A DNA stretch of 64,000 bases from an uncultured Pelagibacteraceae bacterium (lineage in GTDB: Bacteria > Pseudomonadota > Alphaproteobacteria > Pelagibacterales > Pelagibacteraceae), in the NCBI GenBank assembly GCA_902557235.1, contig CACDZR010000001.1:160631-224630 (forward strand). The letters run 5' to 3'. Below are positions 1,570 to 6,210 of the stretch, piece by piece. The notes under the pieces were generated by a model. That model searched no databases. It worked only from the letters and a program-made list of their open reading frames with translations, and had not been told where the DNA came from. A program made the translations under genes and the position numbers. Position 1 is the first letter of the stretch. Every line of letters begins with the position of its first letter.

Positions 1570-2373
1570 GTGCAAATTTTAAAATCATCAGATTATAAAC
1601 TTTATTCAAAGTTCATTGAAAGTTTAGCTAAGAAATTAACTAGATTTTATTACTCTAAATTAAACAAACCCTTTAAAGTATCGAATAAACTTAGAAGCGG
1701 TTATGACCCTGTAACAACCGCTGACAAGGCTTTTGAACGATTCATCAGAAATGAGATTAAAAAAAAGTTTCCAAATCACCAAATTATAGGTGAAGAATTT
1801 GGCTATAAAAAAACTAAAAGTGATTATTCATGGGTTATAGATCCTATAGATGGAACTCGATCATTTGTGATAGGAAATCCAACTTGGAGTAATTTGATAT
1901 CTTTAAATTATAAAGGTAACCCAGTCGTAGGTCTTGCTAATTTTCCAATTCTTAAAAAGTTTTATTTTAATACCTCATTTAATTCTGCGTATGTTTCAGA
2001 AAATGGAAAGAAAAAGAAAATACTTGTAAACCAAAAAGCAACTTATTCTAAAATGAAATTGTCTGCAGCTTTTCACGGCAGTCTGTCATTAAATAAACAA
2101 AAAAAAATTCCTCAAATTTTAAAAAGAATGCAATTTCCCTGTTCGGATGCTTTAAGTTATTCTCATTTTGCCGAGGGTAAACTTGATGTTGTTATTCAAT
2201 GTGGAAATAAAATTTGGGATATTCATGCTTTAATACCAATTATTGAGGCTGCAAAAGGGATTGTCTCGACTTGGAAAAATGATGATGCTAAGAAAGCCGG
2301 AAATATTATTTGCTCAGCTAATAATAATTTACATAAAAAAATGCTTAAAATTTTAAAACCAGTTTCTAGCTAG
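1570..2373 (+). CDS. hisN: histidinol-phosphatase / inositol-monophosphatase family (HisN-like)
   Basis: A 267-aa Mg2+-dependent phosphatase of the IMPase superfamily. It shows the metal-binding motifs GEE (74-76) and D91-PIDG-T ('DPIDGTRSF'), plus the C-terminal 'WDIHALIPIIEAAKG', which resembles the HisN-type histidinol-phosphatase more than SuhB. The expected reaction is L-histidinol phosphate to histidinol in histidine synthesis; inositol phosphate or another sugar phosphate remains possible. The start is GTG at 1570, and no ATG lies before the conserved region. Its 3' end overlaps the convergent SMR gene by 8 bases. Other his genes are not adjacent, which fits the scattered his genes of streamlined genomes. 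Confidence 0.8.
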   Translation: MQILKSSDYKLYSKFIESLAKKLTRFYYSKLNKPFKVSNKLRSGYDPVTTADKAFERFIRNEIKKKFPNHQIIGEEFGYKKTKSDYSWVIDPIDGTRSFVIGNPTWSNLISLNYKGNPVVGLANFPILKKFYFNTSFNSAYVSENGKKKKILVNQKATYSKMKLSAAFHGSLSLNKQKKIPQILKRMQFPCSDALSYSHFAEGKLDVVIQCGNKIWDIHALIPIIEAAKGIVSTWKNDDAKKAGNIICSANNNLHKKMLKILKPVSS

Positions 2374-2701
2374 TTTTACCCAAAGTATTTAAAAGAATTA
2401 CACCAATAATTATTAAACTTATTCCAATAATCCCATAAAGGTTTGGAATTTGCTGATATTTAAAAACTCCAAATAATGTTACTGCAGTAATCGTTAAACC
2501 TCCATATGTTGCGTATGTAAAACCAACTGGGATAATATTCATAGCTTTAGATAAACAAAAAATACAAGCAACTATAGATATGATACAAAAAATAGTTGGC
2601 CCAATTATTGTAAATCCATTAGTTGATTTTAAAAAACCATTTGAAGTTATTCCAAGAAGGATCGCTAAAGCTAAAAAGATATAACCAGATAAATTTGCCA
2701 T
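2366..2701 (-). CDS. SMR-like small membrane transporter, subunit B of a pair
   Basis: A 111-aa protein with four hydrophobic helices, aligning along its length to the EmrE/SMR fold: 'STNGFT' after TM1, 'IPVGFTYATYGG' in TM3 and 'LIIIGVILLNTLGK' in TM4. The TM1 carboxylate of drug-exporting SMRs (E14 of EmrE) is missing; TM1 reads 'LALAILLGITSNGF' with no acidic residue. It is probably the partner of the paralog 3 bases upstream, as in heteromeric SMR pairs. It is the last gene of the eleven-gene minus-strand run. Substrate unknown; classical drug/proton antiport is doubtful without the glutamate. Confidence 0.8.
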   Translation of the reverse strand: MANLSGYIFLALAILLGITSNGFLKSTNGFTIIGPTIFCIISIVACIFCLSKAMNIIPVGFTYATYGGLTITAVTLFGVFKYQQIPNLYGIIGISLIIIGVILLNTLGKTS

Positions 2702-2704
2702 AAA

Positions 2705-3040
2705 TTATCCTGTTTTACCCAGCAGATTAACAATTAAGACTCCTGATATAATTAATATCAAACCAATGATTGTGAATAGATCAGGCACTTGATTGAATTT
2801 ATATATTCCAACAATTGAAGTCGCTACTATGCAAAGACCAGCAAAAGATGCATAAGTAATACCAACAGGTATAGTTTTCATCACTATTGAAAGAGTAAAC
2901 ATACAACCAATTATTGTGATTGCAGTAATCAAACTAGGAACTAACAATGTGAAACCATTTGCACTTTTTGCAAAACTATTTGCTGCAGTTCCTAATATGA
3001 CAGCAAGTATAAGAATTAGAAAAGCTATAACGTTACTCAC
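2705..3040 (-). CDS. SMR-like small membrane transporter, subunit A of a pair
   Basis: A 111-aa, four-helix SMR-fold protein, clearly paralogous to the next gene ('KSANGFT', 'IPVGITYASFAGL', 'LIISGVLIVNLLGK'). As in its partner, TM1 ('LILILAVILGTAANSF') has no acidic residue, so the proton- and substrate-coupling glutamate of EmrE is absent. Equal lengths and 3-base spacing suggest a heterodimer in the inner membrane. It follows the DUF2798 gene by 15 bases in the same presumed operon. Possible roles include export of a small metabolite or lipid-linked group, as in SMR relatives such as ArnE/ArnF that also lack this residue. That is inference. Confidence 0.8.
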   Translation of the reverse strand: MSNVIAFLILILAVILGTAANSFAKSANGFTLLVPSLITAITIIGCMFTLSIVMKTIPVGITYASFAGLCIVATSIVGIYKFNQVPDLFTIIGLILIISGVLIVNLLGKTG

Positions 3041-3055
3041 AAATAAAAGATATTC

Positions 3056-3277
3056 TTATTTGGTAATTTTATCTACCAATTTTTTAATCGGGGGACCTAC
3101 AAGAAGGGCAGCAATTATTGCAATTGGAAGACTTACTGACCATGCTTTTAAAAAACGGTCGACATACTCATTATCCATTCCAGTATTTATATAAGTAATT
3201 ATTAGTGTCATTAAAAGACTCATCCCAAATCCCATAACTAATATAAATAAAAGGTTAGAATATTTTTTTGGAAACAT
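3056..3277 (-). CDS. DUF2798 family two-helix membrane protein
   Basis: A 73-aa protein with two predicted membrane helices (roughly residues 8-30 and 45-65). The pattern matches DUF2798: 'LVMGFGMSLLMTLIIT' in helix 1, then 'FLKAWSVSLPIAIIAALLVGP' and a short basic tail. No function is established for the family. It is probably an inner-membrane protein. It sits 2 bases after the TPR gene and 15 bases before the SMR pair, so it is likely co-transcribed with both. The plus-strand ORF at 2916-3194 is a shadow of this gene and its neighbour. Confidence 0.75.
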   Translation of the reverse strand: MFPKKYSNLLFILVMGFGMSLLMTLIITYINTGMDNEYVDRFLKAWSVSLPIAIIAALLVGPPIKKLVDKITK

Positions 3278-3279
3278 TT

Positions 3280-3828
3280 TTAAATACTTTGTTTTTGCAA
3301 TTCAATTTGGAGCTTTTCCATCATAATCATAGGAGACTTCATAAACGGATGAACTTTATGAGCTTCAATGTAACTATCAATAGCTTTTTGGTAGTTTTTT
3401 AAAGCTGTTTGAACTAAACCTTGGCCTGTTAGTGCACCGAAATGTCTTTTTTCTATCTTAAGTACCTTGTCAATATCAGCTTGTGATAGCTCGTATTTAC
3501 CCATTAAATATAATACTGTTGCTCTTTTATTCCAAGCTTCTGCCCAATTAGGATCAAGTTTAATGACTTCAGTAAATTTATCATATGCAGCATCAAGTTT
3601 ATTCTCCATCATTGCAGATGAACCATCAGCTAATAACTTTGTTAAATTATTTTTAGTTGGATGAGTAGTCCAAAGATCCCAAATTTTATCCTCTATTTTT
3701 TTTGAATTTTCAAAGTTTAAAGCACTTTTTAATTGAACAAATAATTTATCAATTTCTTTTTTATTATCGTCAGCCAATAAAGACGATGAAAATAAGAAAA
3801 AAATAAAAATGAATGAAATTCTTTTCAC
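3280..3828 (-). CDS. secreted TPR-repeat protein
   Basis: A 182-aa protein with an N-terminal signal peptide ('ISFIFIFFLFSSSLLA', cleavage likely before DDNKK) and at least two tetratricopeptide repeats between about residues 70 and 160. Their signature residues are visible in 'WAEAWNKRATVLYLMGKYELSQ' and 'ALTGQGLVQTALKNYQKAID'. TPRs mediate protein-protein contacts, so this is probably a periplasmic scaffold or adaptor. It directly follows the SnoaL-like gene with no gap, which suggests coupled translation. Similar small periplasmic TPR proteins are common in alphaproteobacteria. The binding partner is unknown and may be another product of this operon. Confidence 0.8.
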   Translation of the reverse strand: MKRISFIFIFFLFSSSLLADDNKKEIDKLFVQLKSALNFENSKKIEDKIWDLWTTHPTKNNLTKLLADGSSAMMENKLDAAYDKFTEVIKLDPNWAEAWNKRATVLYLMGKYELSQADIDKVLKIEKRHFGALTGQGLVQTALKNYQKAIDSYIEAHKVHPFMKSPMIMMEKLQIELQKQSI

Positions 3829-4149
3829 TTACTTAGACATTGGAGTAGCGCCAGTTTCTAAACTAACAATTTTTCCGTCTTTATATCTATAAACCGCCAT
3901 TACAGCTTCAACATTTCCGTCATTAAATGTAACAAAAGAATGGTGTACACCCACTTCATCATTTTCATATACAACCCTAGTTTTATCTTGATTGATATCT
4001 CCACTCATTGCCCATTTTATAACATCAGCTTTTCCTAAAGAATTTCCAGATTTATGCATCGTGAATTTAAAATCATCATGCAAAAGTTCATTCATAGTTG
4101 CCTCATCTTTTTTATCTATTGCATCAGTATATCTTTTTAATATCGACAT
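3829..4149 (-). CDS. SnoaL-like / NTF2-fold small protein
   Basis: A 106-aa protein with the features of the SnoaL-like (NTF2) fold: an N-terminal helix-rich stretch 'YTDAIDKKDEATMNELLHDDFKF', a middle loop around 'DVIKWAMSGD', and C-terminal strands ('GNVEAVMAVYRYKDGKIVSLE'). The family binds small hydrophobic ligands or acts as isomerase or cyclase, but members often have no known reaction. No signal peptide, so cytoplasmic. It lies 1 base after the DUF1330 gene and directly before the TPR gene in the small-protein run. The fold is moderately sure; the function is not known. Confidence 0.72.
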   Translation of the reverse strand: MSILKRYTDAIDKKDEATMNELLHDDFKFTMHKSGNSLGKADVIKWAMSGDINQDKTRVVYENDEVGVHHSFVTFNDGNVEAVMAVYRYKDGKIVSLETGATPMSK

Positions 4150-4150
4150 T

Positions 4151-4438
4151 TTATACTCCTTTAATTATTATTCCGTTACCAATCGAGTTTTCTAAACGGA
4201 TTTGTTTAATTGGTTTGTATTCATCAGAGTTATACCACTCTAAAGCTTTGTCATAACTTGGAAATTTAATAACAACTGTTCTAGGATATGCCCAAGTTCC
4301 TTCTAATACTTTTGTTTCACCACCTCTAACAATATATTCTCCACCAAATTTTTCAGCAATCGGTTTCACTTTTTCTACGTACTCTTTATATTCCTCAGGT
4401 TTTTTTACCTCTATGTTGAATATTGCAAACCCAGACAT
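4151..4438 (-). CDS. DUF1330 domain protein (ferredoxin-like dimeric barrel)
   Basis: A 95-aa protein matching DUF1330, a small alpha/beta-barrel family. Diagnostic segments are 'NIEVKKPEEYKEYVEKVKPI', 'GGEYIVRGGE', 'EGTWAYPRTVVIKFPSYDKALEWYNSDEY' and a final short strand. DUF1330 proteins are dimeric ferredoxin-like barrels related to Dabb and ABM domains; no reaction is firmly known. Cytoplasmic, no signal peptide. The start codon overlaps the stop of the upstream membrane gene by one base, which implies translational coupling. It is one of four genes here of about 95-104 aa that seem to share this fold. Confidence 0.85.
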   Translation of the reverse strand: MSGFAIFNIEVKKPEEYKEYVEKVKPIAEKFGGEYIVRGGETKVLEGTWAYPRTVVIKFPSYDKALEWYNSDEYKPIKQIRLENSIGNGIIIKGV

Positions 4439-4854
4439 TAAGTGTAAATTTTATCAGCTAAACCGTAGCATAAAATTGCACTCATAATTGTAAATACAAA
4501 CGGTGCAATAACACCCTCGTTTGTAGTTTTTTCATTCACACCTGTTTTATTTATTTTAATAGAATAAAAATTACATAAAAAAATACATAGGTTATTTATA
4601 AAAACTAAATTTAAGAATCCCCATGTGTTTTCCAAACCCCCAGGTCTTATAAAACCTACATAGATTGACATTAAAAATACAGCGAGCATAAATGCTCCTG
4701 CCATTCTAATCATTATTGCTCCACTTGGATCTATACCAAATCTTTCCATGAAGCTTTTAGTGCCAAAAATAGTTTGAAATGCGTAAACACCAACTCCAAT
4801 AAAGTGAACTAAATAAATTATTAAATAAAATATCCCATTAAATTTTTCTAACAT
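4438..4854 (-). CDS. four-helix membrane protein of unknown function
   Basis: A 138-aa protein not recognised as a named family. Four hydrophobic helices are visible at roughly residues 8-28, 44-68, 78-98 and 115-135. Between helices 1 and 2 is a conserved-looking 'TIFGTKSFMERFGIDPSGAIMIRMAGA', and a polar loop 'KINKTGVNEKTTNEG' precedes the last helix. It is probably an inner-membrane protein with no catalytic motif I can name. It overlaps DUF1330 by one base and follows the 104-aa gene by 9 bases. Small membrane proteins beside DUF1330/Dabb-like proteins recur in marine bacteria, but no function can be assigned from this. Confidence 0.7.
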   Translation of the reverse strand: MLEKFNGIFYLIIYLVHFIGVGVYAFQTIFGTKSFMERFGIDPSGAIMIRMAGAFMLAVFLMSIYVGFIRPGGLENTWGFLNLVFINNLCIFLCNFYSIKINKTGVNEKTTNEGVIAPFVFTIMSAILCYGLADKIYT

Positions 4855-4863
4855 TTTTTTCTC

Positions 4864-5178
4864 CTAATCGTTAAAAACCATTCTCATTTCATCCTGAATT
4901 GTACCTTCTTTAAAAACACCTTTCATTTTTTTCTGAAGTTCAATGAATTCAGGATCAGCTGACATGTTTGTATCATTTTCAAATGCTTTATCAGTAAACT
5001 GCTCGCCCACAAGTGTTTCTCTTACCGTCCTTGGGTTACCACCAATTTGAAATGAAAAGTAAACTTCATGATCTGGATAATGTTTTTTTCTAACTTTTGC
5101 CAAACCTTTAGAGATTTCCATAGCTTCATCAAGTTTATCATCGTAAACACCAATGGTTCTTGTATAGATTGCTTTCAT
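4864..5178 (-). CDS. small protein, probable ferredoxin-like dimeric barrel
   Basis: A 104-aa protein with no named family recognised. It begins with a strand ('KAIYTRTIGVY'), then an amphipathic helix ('DKLDEAMEISKGLAKVRKKHYP') and a second strand ('HEVYFSFQIGGNP'). This beta-alpha-beta start resembles Dabb/ABM-type barrels. The rest is polar and helical ('DPEFIELQKKMKGVF'). No signal peptide. It lies 11 bases after the 95-aa gene and 9 bases before the membrane gene, in the same minus-strand run. Good spacing and conserved-looking composition support a real gene; the fold assignment is inference from the pattern only. Confidence 0.68.
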   Translation of the reverse strand: MKAIYTRTIGVYDDKLDEAMEISKGLAKVRKKHYPDHEVYFSFQIGGNPRTVRETLVGEQFTDKAFENDTNMSADPEFIELQKKMKGVFKEGTIQDEMRMVFND

Positions 5179-5189
5179 AAATTTCTCTT

Positions 5190-5477
5190 TTAAGCGTTAT
5201 AGTCCATCACTTGGTCAGTACACTCAGTAAATTTATGTGGCTCAAAGAAATCATTCATTTGACCCAATTGATTATTGATATCCGCTTCACTGTTAGCTTT
5301 CCACCAACAAAACATTTGCATTGTATCACCTGGAGTGTTCCAAGTCATTTGACATGCTGCTTTATCACTTGTCATTGATTTAACAATGTCTTCCATTTTC
5401 ATTGAAGCTACTGTTTCACTAAATTTAGCTTTCATCTCTTTTGATTTGAAAGTGTGAGTTACCATATAGTTTTTCAT
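5190..5477 (-). CDS. small protein, probable ferredoxin-like fold (DUF3303-like pattern)
   Basis: A 95-aa protein with a beta-alpha-beta-alpha-beta pattern: strand 'YMVTHTFKS', helix 'MKAKFSETVASMKMEDIVKS', strands around 'CQMTWNTPGDTMQMFCWWKA', helix 'SEADINNQLGQMNDFFEPH', last strand 'KFTECTDQVM'. The order and tryptophan-rich central strand recall DUF3303/DUF4242-type barrels, but the match is weak. Three cysteines (in 'ACQM', 'MFCWW' and 'TECTD') are unusual for so small a cytoplasmic protein in this genome. It sits 13 bases after the 94-aa gene and 11 bases before the 104-aa gene. Function unknown. Confidence 0.66.
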   Translation of the reverse strand: MKNYMVTHTFKSKEMKAKFSETVASMKMEDIVKSMTSDKAACQMTWNTPGDTMQMFCWWKANSEADINNQLGQMNDFFEPHKFTECTDQVMDYNA

Positions 5478-5490
5478 TTTTTCCTTTCAA

Positions 5491-5775
5491 CTATTTTGCT
5501 TTAGTTAAGTGATAAACTGAGTAACTATCTAATACTGCTGACATAATAGGTTTTGATACTTCAGTTCCTTCTATAAATTTATATAGAGCTGCTTCATCAG
5601 TACAAAAAATTTTAAACATAACAGTGCTTTTATCTGGTGTTACTGTTCCAATTGTTTTTTCCACTACTGCAACTTTTGCTCTTTCTGCCAAACCCTCAGG
5701 TGATTGCATAAAACCCATGAATTTTTCAAACATACCTTCTTTTAGTTTAGCAACTACTAACATTTCTTTTTCCAT
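5491..5775 (-). CDS. small protein, probable ferredoxin-like fold
   Basis: A 94-aa protein not assigned to a named family. The pattern is again beta-alpha-beta-alpha-beta: 'KEMLVVAKLK' strand, 'EGMFEKFMGFMQSPEGLAER' helix, 'VVEKTIGTVTPDKSTVMFKIFCT' hairpin, 'DEAALYKFIEG' helix, 'YSVYHLTKAK' strand. It has almost the same length and layout as the next gene, so the two may be distant paralogs. A ribosome site ('AAGGAGAT', minus strand) lies just before the ATG. It follows the secreted 123-aa gene by 10 bases. Function unknown; dimeric barrels of this size often bind heme, polyketides or reactive aldehydes. Confidence 0.68.
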   Translation of the reverse strand: MEKEMLVVAKLKEGMFEKFMGFMQSPEGLAERAKVAVVEKTIGTVTPDKSTVMFKIFCTDEAALYKFIEGTEVSKPIMSAVLDSYSVYHLTKAK

Positions 5776-5785
5776 ATCTATCTCC

Positions 5786-6157
5786 TTAATATAATGTTTG
5801 AACTACTTTTTTTACTCTTTCAGCTCCATTAGGCACTAAAGCTTCAACAAACGTATGACATTTGTCAGTTTTAGCTTTGTTGTATTTTGAGCCGTAATGT
5901 TTATCAACTGCTTTGTTTACTCCAGCATCCCAATCTTTTTCTGGAATACCTATTTCAAGAGCATAGGTTTTTAAAACTTTCACAGTTGAAATTGATTTTT
6001 CTTTCATTCCGTACTCAAATTTTTCACCTGATGGAAGAAAGTAGTTGGCCATATAAATACCAACACAATCCCATGCTTTTGATTTATCTTTATCACTCAT
6101 TTCTGCATTAGCAGATGTAAAGATGAAAAAAGATAAAAGTATAATAATTTTTTTCAT
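5786..6157 (-). CDS. small secreted two-cysteine protein, first gene of the small-protein operon
   Basis: A 123-aa protein with a clear signal peptide ('IIILLSFFIFTSANA', cleavage likely before EMSDK). The mature part is about 105 aa, mostly helical by composition, with one cysteine early ('AWDCVGIYMANYF') and one late ('TDKCHTFVEAL') that could form a disulfide in the periplasm. No named family recognised. It is the promoter-proximal gene of eleven minus-strand genes ending at 2366, so its upstream region (6158-6225) probably carries the operon's control. An inverted repeat ATGTAAC-N6-GTTACAT lies there. Function unknown. Confidence 0.72.
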   Translation of the reverse strand: MKKIIILLSFFIFTSANAEMSDKDKSKAWDCVGIYMANYFLPSGEKFEYGMKEKSISTVKVLKTYALEIGIPEKDWDAGVNKAVDKHYGSKYNKAKTDKCHTFVEALVPNGAERVKKVVQTLY

Positions 6158-6190
6158 AATTTTCCGACGTTAAATAATATTAATATAAAA

Positions 6191-6210
6191 ATGTAACTGT
6201 TTTGTTACAT
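6191..6210. promoter_or_regulatory. inverted repeat ATGTAAC-N6-GTTACAT, candidate operator
   Basis: A perfect 7-bp inverted repeat with a 6-base spacer, 34 bases upstream of the first gene of the eleven-gene small-protein operon and 16 bases beyond the cysK stop codon. The 20-base dyad size suits a dimeric transcription factor. There is no G+C-rich stem or T-tract as expected for a terminator of cysK on the minus strand. The regulator is unknown. Confidence 0.4.

Follow-up and report, generated by a model that had tools for sequence, protein, structure and literature searches.

An eleven-gene run in the genome of an uncultured Pelagibacteraceae bacterium is probably a modular SAR11 accessory operon for phosphate starvation, one that PhoB would bind and induce. 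The run lies in a stretch of 64,000 nucleotides (the window) taken from a genome of 1.0 Mb that is 83% complete. The Pho-box-like element upstream of the operon makes phosphate starvation its likely trigger, and we place control by PhoB, with the ligand-handling role of the products left open, at somewhat better than even. Locus, genome and family numbers (prefixed L, G, g and f) are our own.

All eleven open reading frames were found on the minus strand between positions 2366 and 6157, bearing out the run described in the first-pass annotation. The largest intergenic gap is 15 bp, from I to J, and E and F share one base; the packing is operon-like, and from it we infer that A to K are co-transcribed as a single operon. 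Gene A (5786-6157) encodes a secreted, all-helical protein of 123 aa with two invariant cysteines. It is followed by B (5491-5775; 94 aa, an alpha+beta pattern and no Pfam family), C (5190-5477; 95 aa, with invariant cysteines C42 and C57 and a weak SCO4226-like match), D (4864-5178; 104 aa, an alpha+beta pattern and no known family) and E (4438-4854), a membrane protein of four transmembrane (TM) helices. Downstream lie F (4151-4438; DUF1330, Pfam E 3e-32), G (3829-4149; SnoaL-like, Pfam SnoaL_2 E 3e-9), H (3280-3828; a secreted TPR protein by Pfam), I (3056-3277; DUF2798, two TM helices, Pfam E 6e-21) and two SMR proteins, J (2705-3040) and K (2366-2701). The putative operator, ATGTAACAAAACAGTTACATTT, occupies 22 bp of the minus strand at 6189-6210, 53 bp upstream of gene A.

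Among the eleven products, a family could be assigned only to F, G, H, I and the SMR pair: the Pfam profile search placed F, G, H, I and J, and K was assigned through its match to EmrE. F passes the DUF1330 gathering score comfortably (111 bits vs 23) and has relatives of solved structure (2fiu, 3lo3), and G passes that of SnoaL_2 (37.7 bits vs 27). In passing that score G resembles the SnoaL-like proteins of the ketosteroid-isomerase fold; genes of polyketide or steroid pathways are absent nearby. A, B, D and E match no Pfam family above threshold, and C has only the sub-threshold SCO4226-like match (E 0.03). B, C and D had been described as barrel-like, a description that reads no more than their length and their pattern of strands and helices; Pfam gives no match above cut-off to the barrel families (ABM, dimeric alpha+beta barrel), a PDB sequence search returned no convincing match, and the three are mutually dissimilar in profile comparison. 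The operon does resemble the known DUF1330, ABM, GYD, DUF3764 and SCO4226-like proteins in its clear DUF1330 member F and in the GYD-like, ABM and DUF3764 proteins of its sister operons, whereas B, C and D fall outside the known Pfam models. Assigning function by fold was also tried for A and E and abandoned: the AF2 models are confident (pLDDT 93 for E, with four long helices, and 85 for A, with five), yet E found no significant match in the PDB, its best weak likeness being a microsomal GST (E 0.78), and A no fold match better than E 0.9.

The synteny search, named beforehand as a possible refutation of the one-operon claim, came out in its favour, with the genes found together, co-directional and tightly packed. 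Approximately 145 loci were annotated using profiles built from the operon families, and 87 of these are complete loci running from cysK to the inositol-monophosphatase gene (imp); the usual site of the operon is between cysE-cysK and imp. Across the 87 complete Pelagibacterales loci, 823/841 member genes (98%) are co-directional and the median intergenic gap is 9 bp (30 bp or less in 94%), and the run therefore exceeds chance. Relative gene order is largely constant, with A preceding E in 91/91 loci, for example, and DUF2798 (I) is present in 86/87. Membership is another matter, as the 87 loci hold 52 distinct gene sets, and the flanking genes also differ between strains. Sister operons carry additional GYD-like, ABM-like and DUF3764 modules, cupins, a second SnoaL, a DSBA-domain protein, small secreted proteins and small two-TM proteins, and one slot is mostly filled alternately by H, the DSBA-domain protein or a 72-aa two-TM protein. 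The same families also co-assemble, co-directionally, in other contexts, namely L026, L041 and L042 (both of genus g5, near hisD in some), and L068 and L069 (family f2). Scattered genes are therefore not what is seen, since the families assemble together even as their membership changes. This mosaic suggests that each strain retains modules for the compounds it encounters.

E is the most widespread member, occurring in 141/197 sampled Pelagibacterales genomes; C occurs in 76/197. Beyond Pelagibacterales, E was found in five sampled Alphaproteobacteria genomes and C in one (G232), and the named matches retained for C all come from Pelagibacteraceae or Pelagibacterales genomes, so that the C family appears essentially limited to Pelagibacterales. 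In several Pelagibacter genomes E stands alone behind redoxin-like and GT4-like glycosyltransferase genes (L028, L033, L036, L037, L059); these loci have no recognised Pho box, and the other operon genes lie in a different place (e.g. G056, L065).

The element at 6189-6210 consists of two 11-bp units, ATGTAAC-AAAA and CAGTTAC-ATTT. In the same genomes the promoter of pstS contains two or three tandem 11-bp units (e.g. TTTTAAC-AAAA-GTGTAAC-AATT-CTGTAAT), and judged by its letters the tandem upstream of the operon looks like a Pho box. The block between cysK and the first gene is conserved whichever gene leads (A, B, C, SnoaL2 or sec160), and the element keeps its position across relatives with different first genes. 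To score it we trained a 22-bp matrix solely on pstS promoters, with 638 upstream regions from the same loci as controls. With this matrix 84/101 operon promoters exceed the control 99th percentile; the nominal Mann-Whitney p of 3e-50 overstates their independence, because the 101 promoters are mutually related. The window element scores 13.3, the second-best of about 128,000 positions in the window, the top position falling inside a transporter gene. Dinucleotide shuffles of 11 chosen promoters gave p values of 0.0005-0.03, that of the window site being 0.001. A few operons (L030, L055, L061, L063, L078) show no recognisable box in the matrix scan.

We also ran a sequence-only covariance model (R1), built from pstS boxes, over ten genomes. 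It recovered sites before pstS, pstC, phoR, plcP and arsC-like genes, as we name them from their protein sequences, and in G013 (L234) a site at the promoter of operon gene D. As a genome-wide ranker, however, it was set aside: while it found known Pho genes, it gave the window site 6.3 bits, outside the top matches, a low score that arises from the second unit, CAGTTAC instead of CTGTAAC. Among the surrounding observations, plcP and a divergent diacylglycerol-kinase-like gene have Pho-box-like sites on both strands of their common region (L226, L228, L230), a region that lies near pstS in the window's genome and its relatives. Pho-box-like sites also precede an arsenate-reductase-type, arsC-like gene at L241 and L233 (genomes G005 and G038), which would be expected if arsenate stress accompanies phosphate starvation.

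The element can be read in another way. Behind cysK it is also a near-perfect palindrome, TGTAAC-N6-GTTACA, which folds as a hairpin ahead of a T run (-6 kcal/mol, z -3.7) and which in a few strains shows paired changes in its arms (TGTAAT..ATTACA, TGTAGT..GCTACA). These features leave room for two other readings, a terminator of cysK or a binding site for a repressor that recognises the palindrome, with an operon that is constitutive or under a control unrelated to phosphate. The distribution of PhoB bears on the same question. The window's genome encodes PhoB (G000:C2:95591-96265, 329 bits, above cut-off) as well as PstS, but many offshore SAR11 are without the pst-phoBR set (PMC12636525). 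Of the operon-bearing genomes, 11/15 without full-length PhoB retain the box, often letter-perfect (G040, G114, G139, G152), compared with 53/56 that have PhoB; conversely, it is missing or weak in 4/15 vs 3/56 (Fisher p = 0.03, with a threshold picked post hoc and a table compiled by hand). Genomes without PhoB may keep the box because PhoB was lost recently, because a different OmpR-type regulator uses it, or because it doubles as the cysK terminator. Against a terminator or palindrome-reading repressor, conservation of the A-rich "loop" is close to that of the arms. Moreover, in the contexts that are not behind cysK (on the hisD side, divergent from E, and in family f2) the palindrome is lost but the first operon gene is still preceded by the 11-bp tandem (CTGTAAT-AAAT-TTTTAAC-ATAA; TTTTAAC-AAAT-ATGTAAC-AAGA), and there the pstS-trained scores are high (L042, CTGTAATAAATTTTTAACATAA, 19.6; L145, 17.2; L027, TTTTAACAAATATGTAACAAGA, 16.4). 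By our own count, 16/24 promoters not directly behind cysK pass the control 99th percentile. We regard the terminator or repressor reading as the strongest competitor to Pho control, though doubtful. Tracing a regulator through other copies of the palindrome led nowhere, as the sole other exact copy in the window's genome lies inside threonine synthase (TGTAACTTCTGAGTTACA, G000:C5:52704-52721, L002) and is shared by many relatives, which is probably coding conservation. A structural RNA or riboswitch was likewise discarded for lack of any Rfam match.

Other alternatives concern the genes themselves rather than their promoter. The interval between cysK and imp might be a recombination hotspot that gathers small genes whose products have no common function, and the 52 gene sets and variable flanks are what such a hotspot would leave. 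Against it stand the largely constant gene order, the 98% of genes on one strand, and the co-directional assembly of the same families at the five loci elsewhere. Against it, too, stands a distant non-Pelagibacterales alphaproteobacterium (L166, 73-2498), in which a double-barrel-like gene, a cupin, a SnoaL-like gene, a second cupin, GYD and C lie consecutively, and we find a mere hotspot improbable. The promoter of that run is too close to the contig end to be judged. Integron cassettes were rejected because gaps with a median of 9 bp leave no room for attC-like recombination sites between the genes, and a search of Rfam returned nothing. A tandem-duplicated array does not fit either, as the families are mutually dissimilar by profile save for the SMR pair and a moderate DUF1330/DUF3764 match. 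A phage-borne module was also rejected: no relative of C was found in viral contigs, and none of the eight proteins tested matched a PHROG. Finally, the operon might serve efflux of drugs or toxic compounds, the SMR pair acting as pumps and the small folds modifying the drug. J and K share with the SMR transporters (EmrE, Gdx and the paired EbrAB/MdtIJ) their size, four TM helices, gene pairing and similarity to EmrE (J, 4e-14; K, 4e-11; J also Pfam Multi_Drug_Res, 5e-14), and natural-product enzymes include some with a SnoaL or ABM fold. In SMR drug pumps, however, the TM1 glutamate is the position of proton and substrate coupling. In J, V14 takes the place of E14 in the alignment to EmrE, K also lacks an acidic residue in TM1, and none of 113 distinct SMR members has a genuine one (the single flagged case is a misplaced stretch); J also falls below every curated NCBIfam cut-off (Qac, Gdx, EmrE). 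The missing glutamate makes canonical proton-coupled multidrug efflux by the pair unlikely, and the two proteins may instead be flippase-like or structural. We rate an efflux operon as less probable than either the terminator or repressor reading or the hotspot.

Returning to the phosphate-starvation operon, its mixture of ligand-binding folds, secreted proteins and small membrane proteins fits an envelope-linked system that handles a small reactive or hydrophobic ligand, as the first-pass annotation had proposed. PhoB would probably switch the operon on in phosphate starvation through the Pho box upstream of gene A. More tentatively, the SnoaL, DUF1330, GYD, ABM and cupin proteins, with B, C and D by their pattern, would be cytoplasmic proteins that bind or isomerise at least one small molecule, hydrophobic or reactive, derived from the stripping of phospholipids or the import of phosphorus compounds. 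E, DUF2798 and the Glu-less SMR pair would be their membrane partners, more like flippases than drug pumps, while A and H would act outside the inner membrane. A possible setting is the lipid replacement that PlcP and Agt carry out in SAR11 (PMC4796936). The fuller proposition, that unrelated small ligand-binding or isomerase proteins and Glu-less, flippase-like SMR partners are interchangeable modules of an undescribed, strain-variable SAR11 starvation system, is speculative, and we think it rather less probable than Pho control itself.

Pho boxes were reported earlier for the plcP clusters of marine bacteria (PMC4796936). With the known marine Pho regulon (pstSCAB-phoU-phoBR, plcP-agt; PMC4796936, PMC10734472) the operon shares the 11-bp tandem box at a promoter-like distance from the first gene, and its content is patchy and strain-dependent, as in the HIMB59 phosphate islands. 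Unlike that regulon, it lies between cysK and imp rather than in a pst island, carries no known gene of phosphorus chemistry and persists in genomes without phoB. Our literature search found no description of an operon of this make-up and nothing that connects SAR11 with this gene set or with DUF1330 or DUF2798; papers on how SAR11 responds to sulfur and phosphate supplied background only.

SAR11 outnumbers every other heterotroph in the surface ocean, much of which is phosphate-poor. The link to a Pho box makes these unknown small proteins a directly testable starvation response, and gives the first cue as to when they are used. If the proposed system is real, such modules would be used in membrane-lipid replacement or in the use of organophosphorus compounds, and the mosaic content of the operon offers a natural experiment in which modules accompany which waters.
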